From the NCBI GenBank assembly GCA_003142185.1, contig PLOR01000051.1, positions 1 to 40,743 of the forward strand: a stretch of 40,743 nt of DNA, given 5' to 3'. This stretch comes from Bryobacterales bacterium. Its GTDB lineage: Bacteria > Acidobacteriota > Terriglobia > Bryobacterales > Bryobacteraceae. The translations under genes and the position numbers were made by a program. The notes under the pieces are model-generated. The model was not told where the DNA came from and did not search any database. It saw nothing but the letters and a program-made list of their open reading frames with translations. This document shows positions 4 to 3,789 of this stretch, piece by piece. Position 1 is the stretch's first letter. Each line of letters opens with the position of its first letter.

Positions 4-600
4 ATGGAACAACACATCCTGGCATGGATCACCGAATACGGTTACGCCGCCATCGTCGGCCTGCTCATGCTGGGAATTGTCGGCCTGCCTGTGCCGGATG
101 AGACCCTGCTCACCTTCACCGGCTATCTGGTGTTCCGCGGCAACCTTCGTTTGCCGCTGGCGTTCGCGGCCGCGCTCACCGGCAGCGCGTGCGGCATCAC
201 CATCAGCTACCTGATCGGCCGCACGTTCGGCATCAAGGCGATTCACCGCTACGGCCGGTATGTGCGCATCCGCGAAGAGCACGTGGAGAAGGCGCACGCC
301 TGGTTCCGCAAAGCCGGCCACTGGAGCCTCACGCTAGGCTACTTCATTCCCGGCGTCCGGCACTTGACCGCTTTCGCCGCGGGCATGAGCGACCTCGAAG
401 CTCCGCAATTCGCCCTCTTCGCCTACACCGGCGCCATCCTCTGGGTGTCGGCGTTTCTGTCGCTGGGCTACTTTCTGGGCGACCGATGGGAAGCCGTCGA
501 ACGGAACGTCCACCATTACCTGGTTTACCTGACGCTGGCGGGGATCATGGCGCTGGCGGGTTACTGGGTTTGGCGAAAGCGGCGGGCGCGAGCCAGGTGA
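4..600 (+). CDS. DedA family membrane protein
   Basis: Integral membrane protein of 198 residues, the usual length of the DedA/SNARE-associated family, whose members are linked to lipid flipping, proton motive force and envelope homeostasis. Visible family marks are the N-terminal hydrophobic hairpin with GLPVPDETLL, the GxxxGxxxxYxIGR stretch near residues 58-72, and the FIPGVRHLTAFAAG motif near residues 113-126 that holds the conserved F-x-P-x-x-R element. It ends in a hydrophobic helix and a short basic tail (KRRARAR). The last 56 or so coding bases exist a second time about 500 bp downstream, so the present tail may have been supplied by an insertion. The exact substrate is not predictable. 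Confidence 0.9.
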   Translation: MEQHILAWITEYGYAAIVGLLMLGIVGLPVPDETLLTFTGYLVFRGNLRLPLAFAAALTGSACGITISYLIGRTFGIKAIHRYGRYVRIREEHVEKAHAWFRKAGHWSLTLGYFIPGVRHLTAFAAGMSDLEAPQFALFAYTGAILWVSAFLSLGYFLGDRWEAVERNVHHYLVYLTLAGIMALAGYWVWRKRRARAR

Positions 601-628
601 GAGTCAGCGACACCACCACCACCCACGG
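544..628 (+). repeat. Direct repeat, copy 1 (dedA/symporter tail)
   Basis: Imperfect direct repeat of the stretch starting at 1043, about 80-85% identical by eye over roughly 80 bp. It encodes the DedA C-terminus on the plus strand. On the minus strand it still encodes a symporter-like tail (LTLTWLAPAAFAKPSNPPAP and a stop at 545), although the real symporter ends at 1044. Both reading frames are preserved, so this is a second allele of the junction and not a chance match. Confidence 0.85.
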
Positions 629-635
629 GTATAAT
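607..635 (+). promoter_or_regulatory. Sigma-70-like promoter for the inserted 115-residue gene
   Basis: A perfect TATAAT lies at 630-635, and GCGACA lies 17 bases upstream at 607-612, matching four of six bases of the -35 consensus. The GTG start of the next gene is seven bases after the -10, so transcription would begin at about the start codon and give a leaderless mRNA. The -35 falls within the duplicated segment. Confidence 0.5.
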
Positions 636-641
636 AGCCCT

Positions 642-989
642 GTGTCGGAATCCGCCTTGAAAGCATTCGTTGCTAGGCCTGTGCCGACAGTTCGCGCTGA
701 GGAACTGAGGCGTGTGTGGTCCTTTTTGGCGTCCGACCAAAGTCGAATCCAGGCCCAGAGGTCGGTCAGCTTGAGCGTCGTGGCCGGTCTGTGCGGGCCG
801 AAAACGGACGCGCTTGCAGTGTGGTTTCGGGCGACCCTTATCCAGGCTTTATTGCGGCGAGGTCGATTGGACCGATGGCGAGATGGGAGCAGCTTGCAAG
901 ACAAGGTCTTCGAGGTGGCAGCAAGATTCCCGCTTCCAAAAGGGCCGGCCGAGGCCGATCTTGACGCCTTGGTTGCCGCAATGGAGTAG
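642..989 (+). CDS. Hypothetical protein in an inserted segment
   Basis: A 115-residue protein from a GTG start that I do not recognise. It has no signal peptide or membrane segment. It looks helical and charged, with a WFRATLIQALLRRGRLDRW stretch in the middle and a DLDALVAAM ending. The frame is open well upstream, but the GTG is preferred because a TATAAT box lies immediately before it. Codon choice is less GC3-biased than in the flanking genes. It is the only plausible gene between the two copies of the dedA/symporter tail, so it is probably cargo of the insertion. A leaderless gene is inferred, not shown. Confidence 0.5.
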   Translation: MSESALKAFVARPVPTVRAEELRRVWSFLASDQSRIQAQRSVSLSVVAGLCGPKTDALAVWFRATLIQALLRRGRLDRWRDGSSLQDKVFEVAARFPLPKGPAEADLDALVAAME

Positions 990-1042
990 TTCGGGCCGCC
1001 CCAGTGGCGCTGTCTGGCCGACTGGTATGGTTCCGGGTCGAC

Positions 1043-1128
1043 ATCATTGCGCTGGCGGGCTACCTGATTTGGCGAAGGTCGCGGGCGCGAGCCAGGTGAG
1101 AGTGAGCGCCACCGTCACCACCACCACG
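1043..1128 (+). repeat. Direct repeat, copy 2 (dedA/symporter tail)
   Basis: Second copy of the 544-628 stretch. On the plus strand it reads as an orphan DedA tail (ALAGYLIWRRSRARAR, stop at 1097-1099). On the minus strand it is the true C-terminus of the sodium:solute symporter. Before the insertion the two genes would have overlapped tail to tail by 56 bases. Confidence 0.85.
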
Positions 1129-2750
1129 CAGCCAATCACGTTGTACCAGAGATAGGAAATGTTGCCGCGCAGGAACGTCCAGAAAATCGCGGCTTCGCCC
1201 GCCAGCATGCCCAGAAACACGGCGCTGCCGCCAACCCTCTTGAAGGCGAAAGCCACCACGAAGCAGCCGAGCAGCGAGCCGTAGAACAGCGATCCAACCA
1301 CGTTGACGGCCACGATCAGCGATCCGAGCTTTTTGCCCCAGCCCGCGAACGCGACCGCATAGGCGCCCCAGAACAAGGTGGCCCAGCGGGAGGCCGTCAG
1401 ATAATGATGATCGCTGGCGCCGCGGTGGAAGTGCCGGCGGTATATATCCACCACGGTCACGGTGGCGAGCGAGTTGATTTCGCCAGAACTGGCGGACATA
1501 GTGGCGGCCATGATCACCGCAATTACCAGCCCCACAATCCCCACCGGAAGGTAGCGCGTTACAAACGAGAGGAAGATGTAGTTGGTGTCGCTAAAGCCCT
1601 TCTCACCATGGTTCTTGTCCACCAGGCGCGCGGCGCTGGCGCGGGCTGCATCGAGCGATTGCTGCGCGCCGCGGTAATCGGCCAAGCCCCGCGCGTGCGC
1701 CGCACCGTCGCCGGCCTTATGCGCCTGGGCAAGCGACAGGGCGGCTTCCCGGCGCCGCTCAAACGCTTCGTGATAGCGTGTCTCGACGCCCGTGTACTCG
1801 CTCGACTGCGAGATGCGCGCCAGCTCGGTGTGCTGGAACAGCACTGGCGGTTCGACGAACACATAGAAGACGAACACCATGGCGCCGATGAACAGGACGA
1901 AGAACTGCATCGGAATCTTGGCCACGGCGTTGAACAGCAGGCTGAGCCGGCTTTCCGCGATCGAGCGGCCGGTGAGGTACCGCTGCACCTGCGACTGGTC
2001 GCACCCGAAGTAAGACAGAAACAGAAACGTGCTGCCTATGAGACCGCTCCAGATATTGAAGCGGTCGTTCCAGTCGAAGTTGGTGGTGACGGCGTTGAGT
2101 CGCCCCGCCGCGCCTGCCAGAAACACCGCGTCGCCGAACGACACCGAGTGCGGCAGCAGCACGATGACGGTCACCAGCGCAATCAGCAGCCCCAGGAAGA
2201 TGACGCCCATCTGCTGCACGTCCGACCAGGTGACGGCCTTGATGCCGCCGATCACGGTGTAACTGACCACGGTCGCGCCCATCAGCAGCGTGGTAGCGCG
2301 CTCCGGCCATCCCAGAATCACCGACAGCACGATGGCTGGCGCATAGATGGTGAGCCCCGCGGAGATGCCGCGCTGGCAGAGGAAGATAACACTAGCCAAT
2401 GCGCGCGTCTTGGCGTCGAACCGGTTTTCCAGGTATTCGTACGCGGTATAGACGCGGGCGCGATAAAACGCCGGCACCACCACTGCACAGACCACGATCA
2501 TGGCGATGGGCAGGCCGAAGTAAGCCTGCACGAAGCGCATGCCATCTACGTAAGATTGGCCGGTGGTGGAGATGAACGTGATGGCGCTGGCTTGCGTGGC
2601 CATGATGGAGAGCGCCATGGCGTACCACGGCATGGTCTTGCCGGCGAGCAGGTACCGGTCCACCGTGTTGCTGCCGCGGCTGCGGTACAGGCCGTAGGCG
2701 ATGATGGACACCAGCGAGGCGAGCAGGACCACCCAATCCAGGGCTCTCAT
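1044..2750 (-). CDS. Sodium:solute symporter (SSS family)
   Basis: Sodium-coupled solute importer of 568 residues with about 13 hydrophobic segments, in the usual SSS (SLC5-like) size range. Family marks include the N-terminal YLLAGKTMPWYAMALSIMAT region near residue 33, GLTIYAPAIVL, YTVIGGIKAVTWSDVQQ near residues 165-181 and GCDQSQVQRYLTGRS near 248-262. An extended soluble loop rich in Ala, Arg and Gln (about residues 310-385) interrupts the membrane part, which is longer than in typical sugar transporters. The substrate (sugar, sialic acid, proline or other) cannot be assigned. Its ATG overlaps the stop of the upstream 44-residue peptide (ATGA), so the two are co-translated. Its last codons lie in the duplicated junction. 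Confidence 0.9.
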   Translation of the reverse strand: MRALDWVVLLASLVSIIAYGLYRSRGSNTVDRYLLAGKTMPWYAMALSIMATQASAITFISTTGQSYVDGMRFVQAYFGLPIAMIVVCAVVVPAFYRARVYTAYEYLENRFDAKTRALASVIFLCQRGISAGLTIYAPAIVLSVILGWPERATTLLMGATVVSYTVIGGIKAVTWSDVQQMGVIFLGLLIALVTVIVLLPHSVSFGDAVFLAGAAGRLNAVTTNFDWNDRFNIWSGLIGSTFLFLSYFGCDQSQVQRYLTGRSIAESRLSLLFNAVAKIPMQFFVLFIGAMVFVFYVFVEPPVLFQHTELARISQSSEYTGVETRYHEAFERRREAALSLAQAHKAGDGAAHARGLADYRGAQQSLDAARASAARLVDKNHGEKGFSDTNYIFLSFVTRYLPVGIVGLVIAVIMAATMSASSGEINSLATVTVVDIYRRHFHRGASDHHYLTASRWATLFWGAYAVAFAGWGKKLGSLIVAVNVVGSLFYGSLLGCFVVAFAFKRVGGSAVFLGMLAGEAAIFWTFLRGNISYLWYNVIGCVVVVTVALTLTWLAPATFAKSGSPPAQ

Positions 2751-2881
2751 CGGTAGGCACGCGTGAAAAAGTATGCCGCCAGAATCACGCCCGCAAGGTA
2801 GATCAGCACCGCCACGTAGACGCGCCGCCAGCTACCTAGAAACGGCGGCGGCGAGTCCGGCACATCGGGAAGCTCCGGCAT
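2747..2881 (-). CDS. Small single-pass membrane protein, probable symporter partner
   Basis: A 44-residue peptide. It starts MPELPDVPDSPPPFLG, continues with one hydrophobic helix (VYVAVLIYLAGVILAAYFF) and ends RAYR. Its stop shares four bases with the ATG of the sodium:solute symporter, which strongly supports translational coupling. Many SSS-type transporters are preceded by a short membrane subunit, but this one is smaller than the two-helix DUF485 or DUF4212 partners and I do not recognise its family. The proline-rich cytosolic start followed by Trp-Arg-Arg fits an N-in topology. The coding call rests on the overlap, the clean hydrophobic helix and the frame. No strong ribosome binding site is visible. 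Confidence 0.7.
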   Translation of the reverse strand: MPELPDVPDSPPPFLGSWRRVYVAVLIYLAGVILAAYFFTRAYR

Positions 2882-3141
2882 GTGAGGCAGTGTAACACGG
2901 GAAGAATGTGGCGCAGGCCGCTGTGATGGGCCGGCCGTGGTCGCGCCGCCGATGCGGCATCGACCGCCGGGAAAACAGGAGAAAAGCAGGCTAATAACTT
3001 TTTTCTCACTTTTCTTGTTCGCAGCGAGGATATGGCCTGCTTAGATGTTCTAGTACCACTACATTCAGGCCTTGAGTACCAAAATCAAGCGGATCTCGTT
3101 CCTTCTTGCGCTACGCTCGATGTGGAAGAGGAATCGGGAAA

Positions 3142-3789
3142 ATGAAAAACCTATTGCTGGCGGGAGTCTTGCTGCTGCCGTTCGTTGCCAGCGCGAGCCA
3201 ACTGTGCTCGACGCAAACAGATTGGTCCTTTTTGACGTGGTCCGGTGCCGGTTTTTCTTGCGAGGCTGACGACCTTGTGTTCTCAAGTTTCTCGGTCAAC
3301 AACGTCCCCGGCAACATGGCCCTGAACTTTTCGACGAACGCCTCTGGCAGCATGATCTCCCTGAACCTCGTCAACGGGACCTTTGCCCAGAGCTTTAGTT
3401 TTAGCTACGAAGTCACGCTCGACGACACTGCGTCTCCGGCGGATAACGAACCCCTATGGGTCATCAATACGGCCTCTGCCGCGGTTCAAGCCGTAACTGG
3501 TGCGAATGGAACGCTTGAGAAGCAGGTCTATCAAACTCAGGGTGGGACCCTGATTGGCACTGACGTCTACACCCAGAGTGGCAACACTGGCGGGGACATC
3601 GGTCCGATTCCTATTAATTTGACTTCGATCTTCATAGTCGATTCGTTCAGTTACGGGAGTGGGACTTTCCTCGACGCCAGCAACACCTTCACCCAAGATC
3701 CAATTCCGGAACCCTCCACGATGGTGCTGCTCGGTGGCGCACTGATCGGCATGGGTTTGATTGGCCGCAAGCGCCGCAAGAGCAGGTAG
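3142..3789 (+). CDS. PEP-CTERM sorting-domain secreted protein
   Basis: A 215-residue exported protein. The N-terminal signal peptide (MKNLLLAGVLLLPFVASA) is followed by a beta-rich body with paired Cys residues and many Asn, Ser and Thr. The end is a textbook PEP-CTERM tail: PIPEPSTMVLLGGALIGMGL, then a basic RKRRKSR cluster. Such tails are recognised by exosortase, which is linked to exopolysaccharide or surface structures; no exosortase gene is in this window. The ATG at 3142 is chosen over upstream in-frame starts because it begins the signal peptide and follows a purine-rich stretch. The body has no domain I recognise. Confidence 0.88.
   Translation: MKNLLLAGVLLLPFVASASQLCSTQTDWSFLTWSGAGFSCEADDLVFSSFSVNNVPGNMALNFSTNASGSMISLNLVNGTFAQSFSFSYEVTLDDTASPADNEPLWVINTASAAVQAVTGANGTLEKQVYQTQGGTLIGTDVYTQSGNTGGDIGPIPINLTSIFIVDSFSYGSGTFLDASNTFTQDPIPEPSTMVLLGGALIGMGLIGRKRRKSR

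Follow-up and report, generated by a model that had tools for sequence, protein, structure and literature searches.

How could a gene come to lie between two convergent genes whose coding ends overlap, with both of them keeping their full length? The question is raised by the start of the window (the whole 40,743-nucleotide stretch analysed here, contig PLOR01000051.1 of a Bryobacterales bacterium), where a sequence-only reading had proposed that the tail-to-tail overlap of dedA and a symporter gene exists twice, that each copy codes for both tails on opposite strands, and that a small inserted gene lies between the copies.

A duplicated coding overlap between dedA and the symporter gene

An independent repeat search finds a direct repeat of 80 nt (544-623 and 1043-1122, spacing 499) whose copies are 85% identical, differing at 12 of the 80 positions, and a gapped alignment lengthens it to the extents given in Table 1. 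The alignment score was reached by none of 500 dinucleotide shuffles, in agreement with the claim that coincidence is unlikely. Both tails can indeed be read in each copy. The plus strand of copy 1 is the tail of dedA, and its minus strand encodes a symporter-like tail of 24 aa that is 75% identical to the symporter and ends at TCA (TGA on the minus strand). Copy 2 starts a single base ahead of the symporter stop codon, and on the plus strand it reads as the dedA-like tail IIALAGYLIWRRSRARAR. The former dedA/symporter overlap spans 1044-1099, that is, the 56 bp originally proposed; the repeat is longer than this because it extends ~27 bp beyond the dedA stop. Between the copies lie ~415 bp (628-1042), close to the first estimate of 420, which hold one plausible gene, here called X, with an 83% identical homologue elsewhere. 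The left edge of the X unit, as delimited by DNA homology, is 3 bp from copy 1 (627/631). The present-day dedA and symporter genes do not overlap and are 443 bp apart.

Table 1 Features of the duplicated dedA-symporter overlap, in window coordinates
Feature	Position	Strand	Description
dedA (VTT domain; DedA/UptA-like membrane protein)	4-600	+	ORF, PF09335; stop 598-600
Repeat copy 1	544-627		dedA tail on +, remnant symporter tail on - (stop 545-547)
Promoter-like site of X	607-635	+	GCGACA (607-612), 17-nt spacer, TATAAT (630-635); consensus match only
X unit	631-1001	+	DNA homology to L112 4990-5360, 85% over 372 columns
Gene X	642-989	+	115 aa, GTG start; orphan, all-alpha model
Spacer	1002-1042		41 bp, between X unit and copy 2
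Repeat copy 2	1043-1128		symporter tail on - (stop 1044-1046), remnant dedA tail on + (stop 1097-1099)
Sodium:solute symporter (SSF)	1044-2750	-	ORF, PF00474, TIGR00813; convergent to dedA

The window starts three bases ahead of the dedA start codon. Domain matches place the dedA product among VTT-domain proteins (PF09335, E 1.7e-20, 74.2 bits against a cut-off of 33.9), and the UptA and DedA models of NCBIfam are matched with scores under their cut-offs. The symporter belongs to the SSF family (PF00474, E 1.8e-35, 123.1 bits against a cut-off of 22.8) and also exceeds the cut-off of NCBIfam model TIGR00813 (215.2 against 184).

Two further ORFs were noted near the symporter. A 44-aa microprotein resembling a single transmembrane segment (MPELPDVPDSPPPFLGSWRRVYVAVLIYLAGVILAAYFFTRAYR; 2747-2881, minus strand) shares an ATGA overlap with the symporter start, and in each of four relatives examined (G002, G021, G001 and G031) the symporter is immediately preceded by an ORF with the same motif; the microprotein could serve the symporter as a small partner subunit. 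The ORF at 3106-3789 on the plus strand has a C-terminal PEPSTMVLLGGALIGMGLIGRKRRKS, by which its product looks like a PEP-CTERM-type secreted protein.

The empty site in relatives

A direct dedA-symporter junction in relatives, the comparison that the sequence-only reading had named as a check, is common. We oriented dedA at 30 loci in 29 genomes, namely the window itself, contig C14 from its own assembly, G001, G002, G021, G031 and 24 more loci (L088-L111), and searched each for the symporter by matches more than 60% identical over more than 100 residues. In 13 of the 30, the two genes overlap tail to tail by 41-74 bp with nothing between them (G002, G021, G195, G257, G131, G256, G159, G250, G193, G253, G175, G171 and G102). 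The genes are 9-51 bp apart at three loci (G203, G202, G062) and more than 400 bp apart at another three (the window, G064, G169). The other 11, among them C14, where the contig ends, and the congener G001, have no symporter within the fetched stretch, which in some cases is short. At ten farther loci (L008-L017, dedA 42-57% identical), no symporter was seen next to dedA at the identity required, and the pairing is therefore characteristic of the closer relatives. The empty site is shown to exist in relatives, and the window represents an insertion together with a duplication.

Other sequence, of 906 and 433 bp, lies between dedA and the symporter in G169 (L094) and G064 (L109), with one plausible gene in each insert by eye, and the dedA-symporter junction seems to accept insertions repeatedly. 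No duplicated overlap was found in these two loci, where the alignment scores were reached by 334 and 105 of 500 shuffles, respectively. In G001, the only congeneric genome searched, dedA is on contig C65 and the symporter on C15, the pair being separated, with other genes beside them, and the G001 dedA tail matches the G001 symporter tail weakly, over 32 bp, a score reached by 17 of 500 shuffles. Since G169 and G064 are without a duplication and the G001 match covers only 32 bp, the duplication is shown in the window only.

In G001, dedA is followed by a long minus-strand ORF (L034, 2-2398) that has a STAND/AAA-type domain below Pfam's cut-off and runs off the contig end. The symporter of G001 adjoins a sensor-kinase-like gene and an S41-type peptidase, both named by reading their translations. 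The peptidase region matches contig C112 of the window's own genome (G000) at 83%, so the separation of the two genes in G001 may be a rearrangement; it is probably a separate event.

Age of the duplication and the second dedA

Alignment with a dedA tail from another genome, also suggested by the sequence-only reading, gives matches for both copies: over the same columns, copy 1 and copy 2 agree with the G001 dedA tail at 42/57 and 45/57 and with each other at 49/57. With the empty site and the shuffle test, both outcomes that this reading had named as refuting it are answered in its favour. For the symporter tail, the copies agree with each other at 47/54, and with G001 at 41/54 (copy 1) and 36/54 (copy 2). 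These same-column counts speak against a divergence between the copies as large as that between the two species. With each copy nearer to the other than to G001, the duplication probably postdates the split from this congener, unless gene conversion evened the copies. When the differences between the copies were polarised by eye with relatives, copy 1 appeared to hold the derived base at 549, 565 and 566, and copy 2 to do so at 580 and 581; the remainder of the 12 were ambiguous.

The assembly holds a second dedA (L033; positions 1-604 of contig C14), 92% identical to positions 1-604 of the window, with glgC upstream of it as judged by reading the translation; C14 stops at the base that corresponds to window 604. 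The 49 differences between the two genes all fall within 36-438, 36 of them at third codon positions. The two versions (C36 and C14) are thus mosaic, the last 166 bp being identical and positions 36-438 being 88% identical. This pattern fits recombination through dedA, an argument clouded by the status of the C14 gene, which may be a strain allele or a tandem paralogue.

Gene X is a sporadic gene of probable foreign origin

X is a real gene. A scan of genome contigs for close relatives of X gave one locus, L112, in the MAG 'Acidobacteria bacterium isolate GL140_6', whose position agrees with that of a separately found homologue (G258, contig C31). BLAST DNA homology to this locus stops at window positions 631 and 1001. 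The homologue belongs to another genus, and its X is 83% identical in amino acids, whereas the dedA of the same genome is only 49% identical. Between the two X genes, dN is 0.10 and dS 0.39; the resulting dN/dS of 0.26 indicates purifying selection, and hence that X is used as a protein. The silent-site distance of X to another genus is smaller than that of the neighbouring, core-like dedA to the congener G001 (dS 0.51), which points to horizontal transfer. From these comparisons, X most likely arrived horizontally as a gene-sized piece.

A profile built from seven family members has matches at E <= 0.001 in 7 of 237 family genomes, and X is near full length in five of them (7 copies), a patchy distribution. 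One near-full-length copy, on contig C513 of G240, is matched through a TAG, and G241 and G248 hold fragments only. Among 396 genomes sampled from the phylum, the only hits of the profile are the genome of the window itself and a partial match in G636. No relative of X was found in phages, plasmids or IMG/VR. The neighbours of X vary. At four loci (the window, G258, G232 and one of the two in G179), X begins 7-91 bp downstream of an unrelated gene on the same strand, distances for which the gene starts are our own annotation; the other three copies (two in G240 and the second of G179) have yet other neighbours. In G258, X adjoins an alpha/beta hydrolase gene and a Phd/YefM-like antitoxin gene, the latter just under Pfam's cut-off, and no direct repeats of at least 14 bp flank it.

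Searches of Pfam and PADLOC with X gave no match at E <= 1; at that threshold PHROGs gave a single match (E 0.07), and NCBIfam a single one that fell below its cut-off (E 0.15). No PDB sequence matched. The predicted fold is all-alpha (pLDDT 84.4), and no solved structure matched it significantly (Foldseek best E 1.9; VIA-align best Z 2.6 over 81 residues), which does not show that the modelled fold is new.

For the proposed promoter of X, a single promoter-like site, GCGACA-17-TATAAT, is present in 540-1140 (10/12 matches to consensus; mean of 0.1 in 50 shuffles). It is a consensus match only, and its -35 box lies inside copy 1. The -10 box lies where the X unit begins, and its counterpart in L112 is GATAAT. 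The GTG start of X is the seventh base past the -10 box, so the transcript is possibly leaderless. X may be expressed from a promoter whose -10 box was carried in and whose -35 box was provided by copy 1.

Source of the interior and its junctions

The interior was also compared with its two neighbours. As decayed dedA or decayed symporter, X is rejected: its scores against dedA on the two strands were reached by 388 and 88 of 500 shuffles, and those against the symporter by 428 and 469 of 500. For the stretch left of copy 2, a dedA remnant that was neutral and as old as copy 1 would be expected to retain ~83% identity (inferred from 19/23 identical positions at 601-623), and nothing alike is seen. 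Positions 986-1042 score against the window's dedA at a level reached by 124 of 500 shuffles and against the G001 dedA at one reached by 13 of 500, which is borderline. The 41 bp left of copy 2 thus appear less like dedA than a young remnant would be, and the similarity of this spacer to the dedA of G001 leaves a little room for a decayed one.

X, the one plausible interior gene, matches no recombinase or transposase family in Pfam, NCBIfam, PHROGs or PADLOC. No inverted repeats of at least 12 bp pair the ends of the interior, 600-1043 contains no attC-like GTTRRRY core (the first match in the window is at 1292), and the window contains no tRNA.

Proposed recombination at the dedA-symporter junction

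Comparison with relatives, many of which have this arrangement, shows that an ancestor carried dedA and the SSF symporter gene in convergent orientation with a tail-to-tail overlap of ~56 bp. A fragment with X, a short stand-alone gene that is sporadic in the family and most likely foreign, entered this junction, and ~84-86 bp spanning the overlap came to stand on each side of the insert; the stretch being doubled, dedA and the symporter each kept a full-length tail. As the most likely mechanism, in an account to which we assign a probability of about 0.5, homology-facilitated illegitimate recombination (HFIR; defined in the cited section of PMC3240628) would have inserted X and duplicated the overlap. 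The incoming DNA, a dedA 3' end followed by X, would have paired by homology with the resident dedA, and its other end would have been attached, with no homology involved, at a point one base short of the symporter stop codon. Copy 1 would then be the incoming dedA tail and copy 2 the surviving resident one, retained because the same stretch is the symporter tail and its loss would truncate the symporter. Among insertions into a two-strand coding overlap, selection would favour those that duplicate the overlap, which keep both genes whole. Among the genomes searched we found no donor with a dedA tail followed by X, so we infer the homologous arm, and the junction details are blurred by the 12 differences over the 80 aligned positions.

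The same final structure would result from a duplicative insertion at a staggered double-strand break, in which nicks ~86 bp apart, capture of foreign DNA and fill-in suffice in a single step with no homologous arm. That copy 1 lies only 3 bp from the X unit, that similarity between the copies ceases on both sides of the insert and that the 41-bp spacer could be filler would all suit such an event. However, the duplications usual at staggered breaks are far shorter than the ~86 bp seen here, and X in G258 shows no such trace (no direct repeat of at least 14 bp around it), and we regard this route as possible but doubtful. We consider it quite unlikely that the locus is the remnant of a site-specific element, with the repeats as attL and attR in the gene tails and the integrase and most cargo lost. 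Gene 3' ends are common attachment sites, elements of this type restore the tail of the gene they enter, and att copies may differ, one having come from the element; against this, the interior holds only X and no recognisable integrase, the tRNA search of the window was negative, X in G258 lacks flanking repeats of at least 14 bp, and the searched phages, plasmids and IMG/VR are devoid of X relatives.

An old duplication in the ancestor of the genus, followed by separate events (the arrival of X here and the separation of the genes in G001), would account for the separated genes of G001 and for the match of its C15 symporter tail to copy 1 (61 columns, 0 of 500 shuffles). It is very improbable, as the copies are nearer to each other than to the G001 tails, unless conversion evened them, and the match between C65 and C15 is weak enough to be reached by 17 of 500 shuffles. 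An assembly artefact might be suspected near a contig end, the more so as the second dedA terminates contig C14 at the base matching window 604; the copies nevertheless differ at 12/80 positions and have a conserved gene between them, so that only the joining of several unrelated pieces could have produced the locus by misassembly, which we find scarcely credible.

Comparison with known systems

Insertion by HFIR, the reading we prefer, has partial parallels. Displaced genes in Vibrio T6SS immunity arrays are tentatively attributed to an HFIR-like process in the cited part of PMC5361080, and homology-assisted illegitimate recombination is discussed for variable loci of E. coli in that of PMC2884548. 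As in the Vibrio arrays, according to the cited parts of PMC5361080 and PMC3240628, one side would be joined at homology and the other at non-homologous sequence, and, as PMC5361080 describes in the part cited, older 3' material remains downstream of the acquired gene or genes. Compared with the Vibrio arrays as described there, the old tail in the window differs in being kept as it doubles as the tail of the opposite-strand gene, and the cargo in being a single orphan gene whose donor was not found. In the part of PMC2884548 cited here, 10-18% of the variable segments of E. coli, S. aureus and S. pyogenes are flanked by repeats, mostly (66-94%) shorter than 30 bp. The window shares with these segments a variable stretch between conserved neighbours, direct repeats and empty sites elsewhere, but its repeats are ~86 bp long, diverged and coding on both strands, unlike those that this part of PMC2884548 reports.

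The locus also differs from the mobile elements that it might call to mind. With no transposase match, no terminal inverted repeats and a duplication of ~86 bp rather than a short one, it is unlike an insertion sequence or transposon; with no site-specific recombinase between the repeats, it is unlike an integrative element with att repeats. An integron gene cassette is a single gene that moves as a compact unit, and X is likewise one gene in a compact unit; in contrast to a cassette, it has no GTTRRRY core in 600-1043, no integrase nearby and its own -10 box. A further suggestion, which we think unlikely, is that X belongs to an undescribed class of ~370-bp single-gene units (a gene plus a -10 box, with no recombinase) that spread horizontally among these Acidobacteria, land in the same orientation just downstream of host genes and can regenerate the tail of the gene entered; in the window, such a unit would have split a two-strand coding overlap at no cost to either gene. 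A limited literature search turned up no account of a convergent overlap duplicated on either side of an inserted gene.

Significance

The structure looks like a recombination scar rather than a new system: the locus reveals no new machinery, and is a well-preserved scar carrying an undescribed small gene. X exposes a small, sporadic protein family of the Acidobacteria that is absent from the searched libraries. The locus is a clear natural example of an overlapping gene pair that was separated, with a foreign gene fitted in and neither partner damaged, because the shared stretch was duplicated, and it shows selection filtering the outcomes of recombination.
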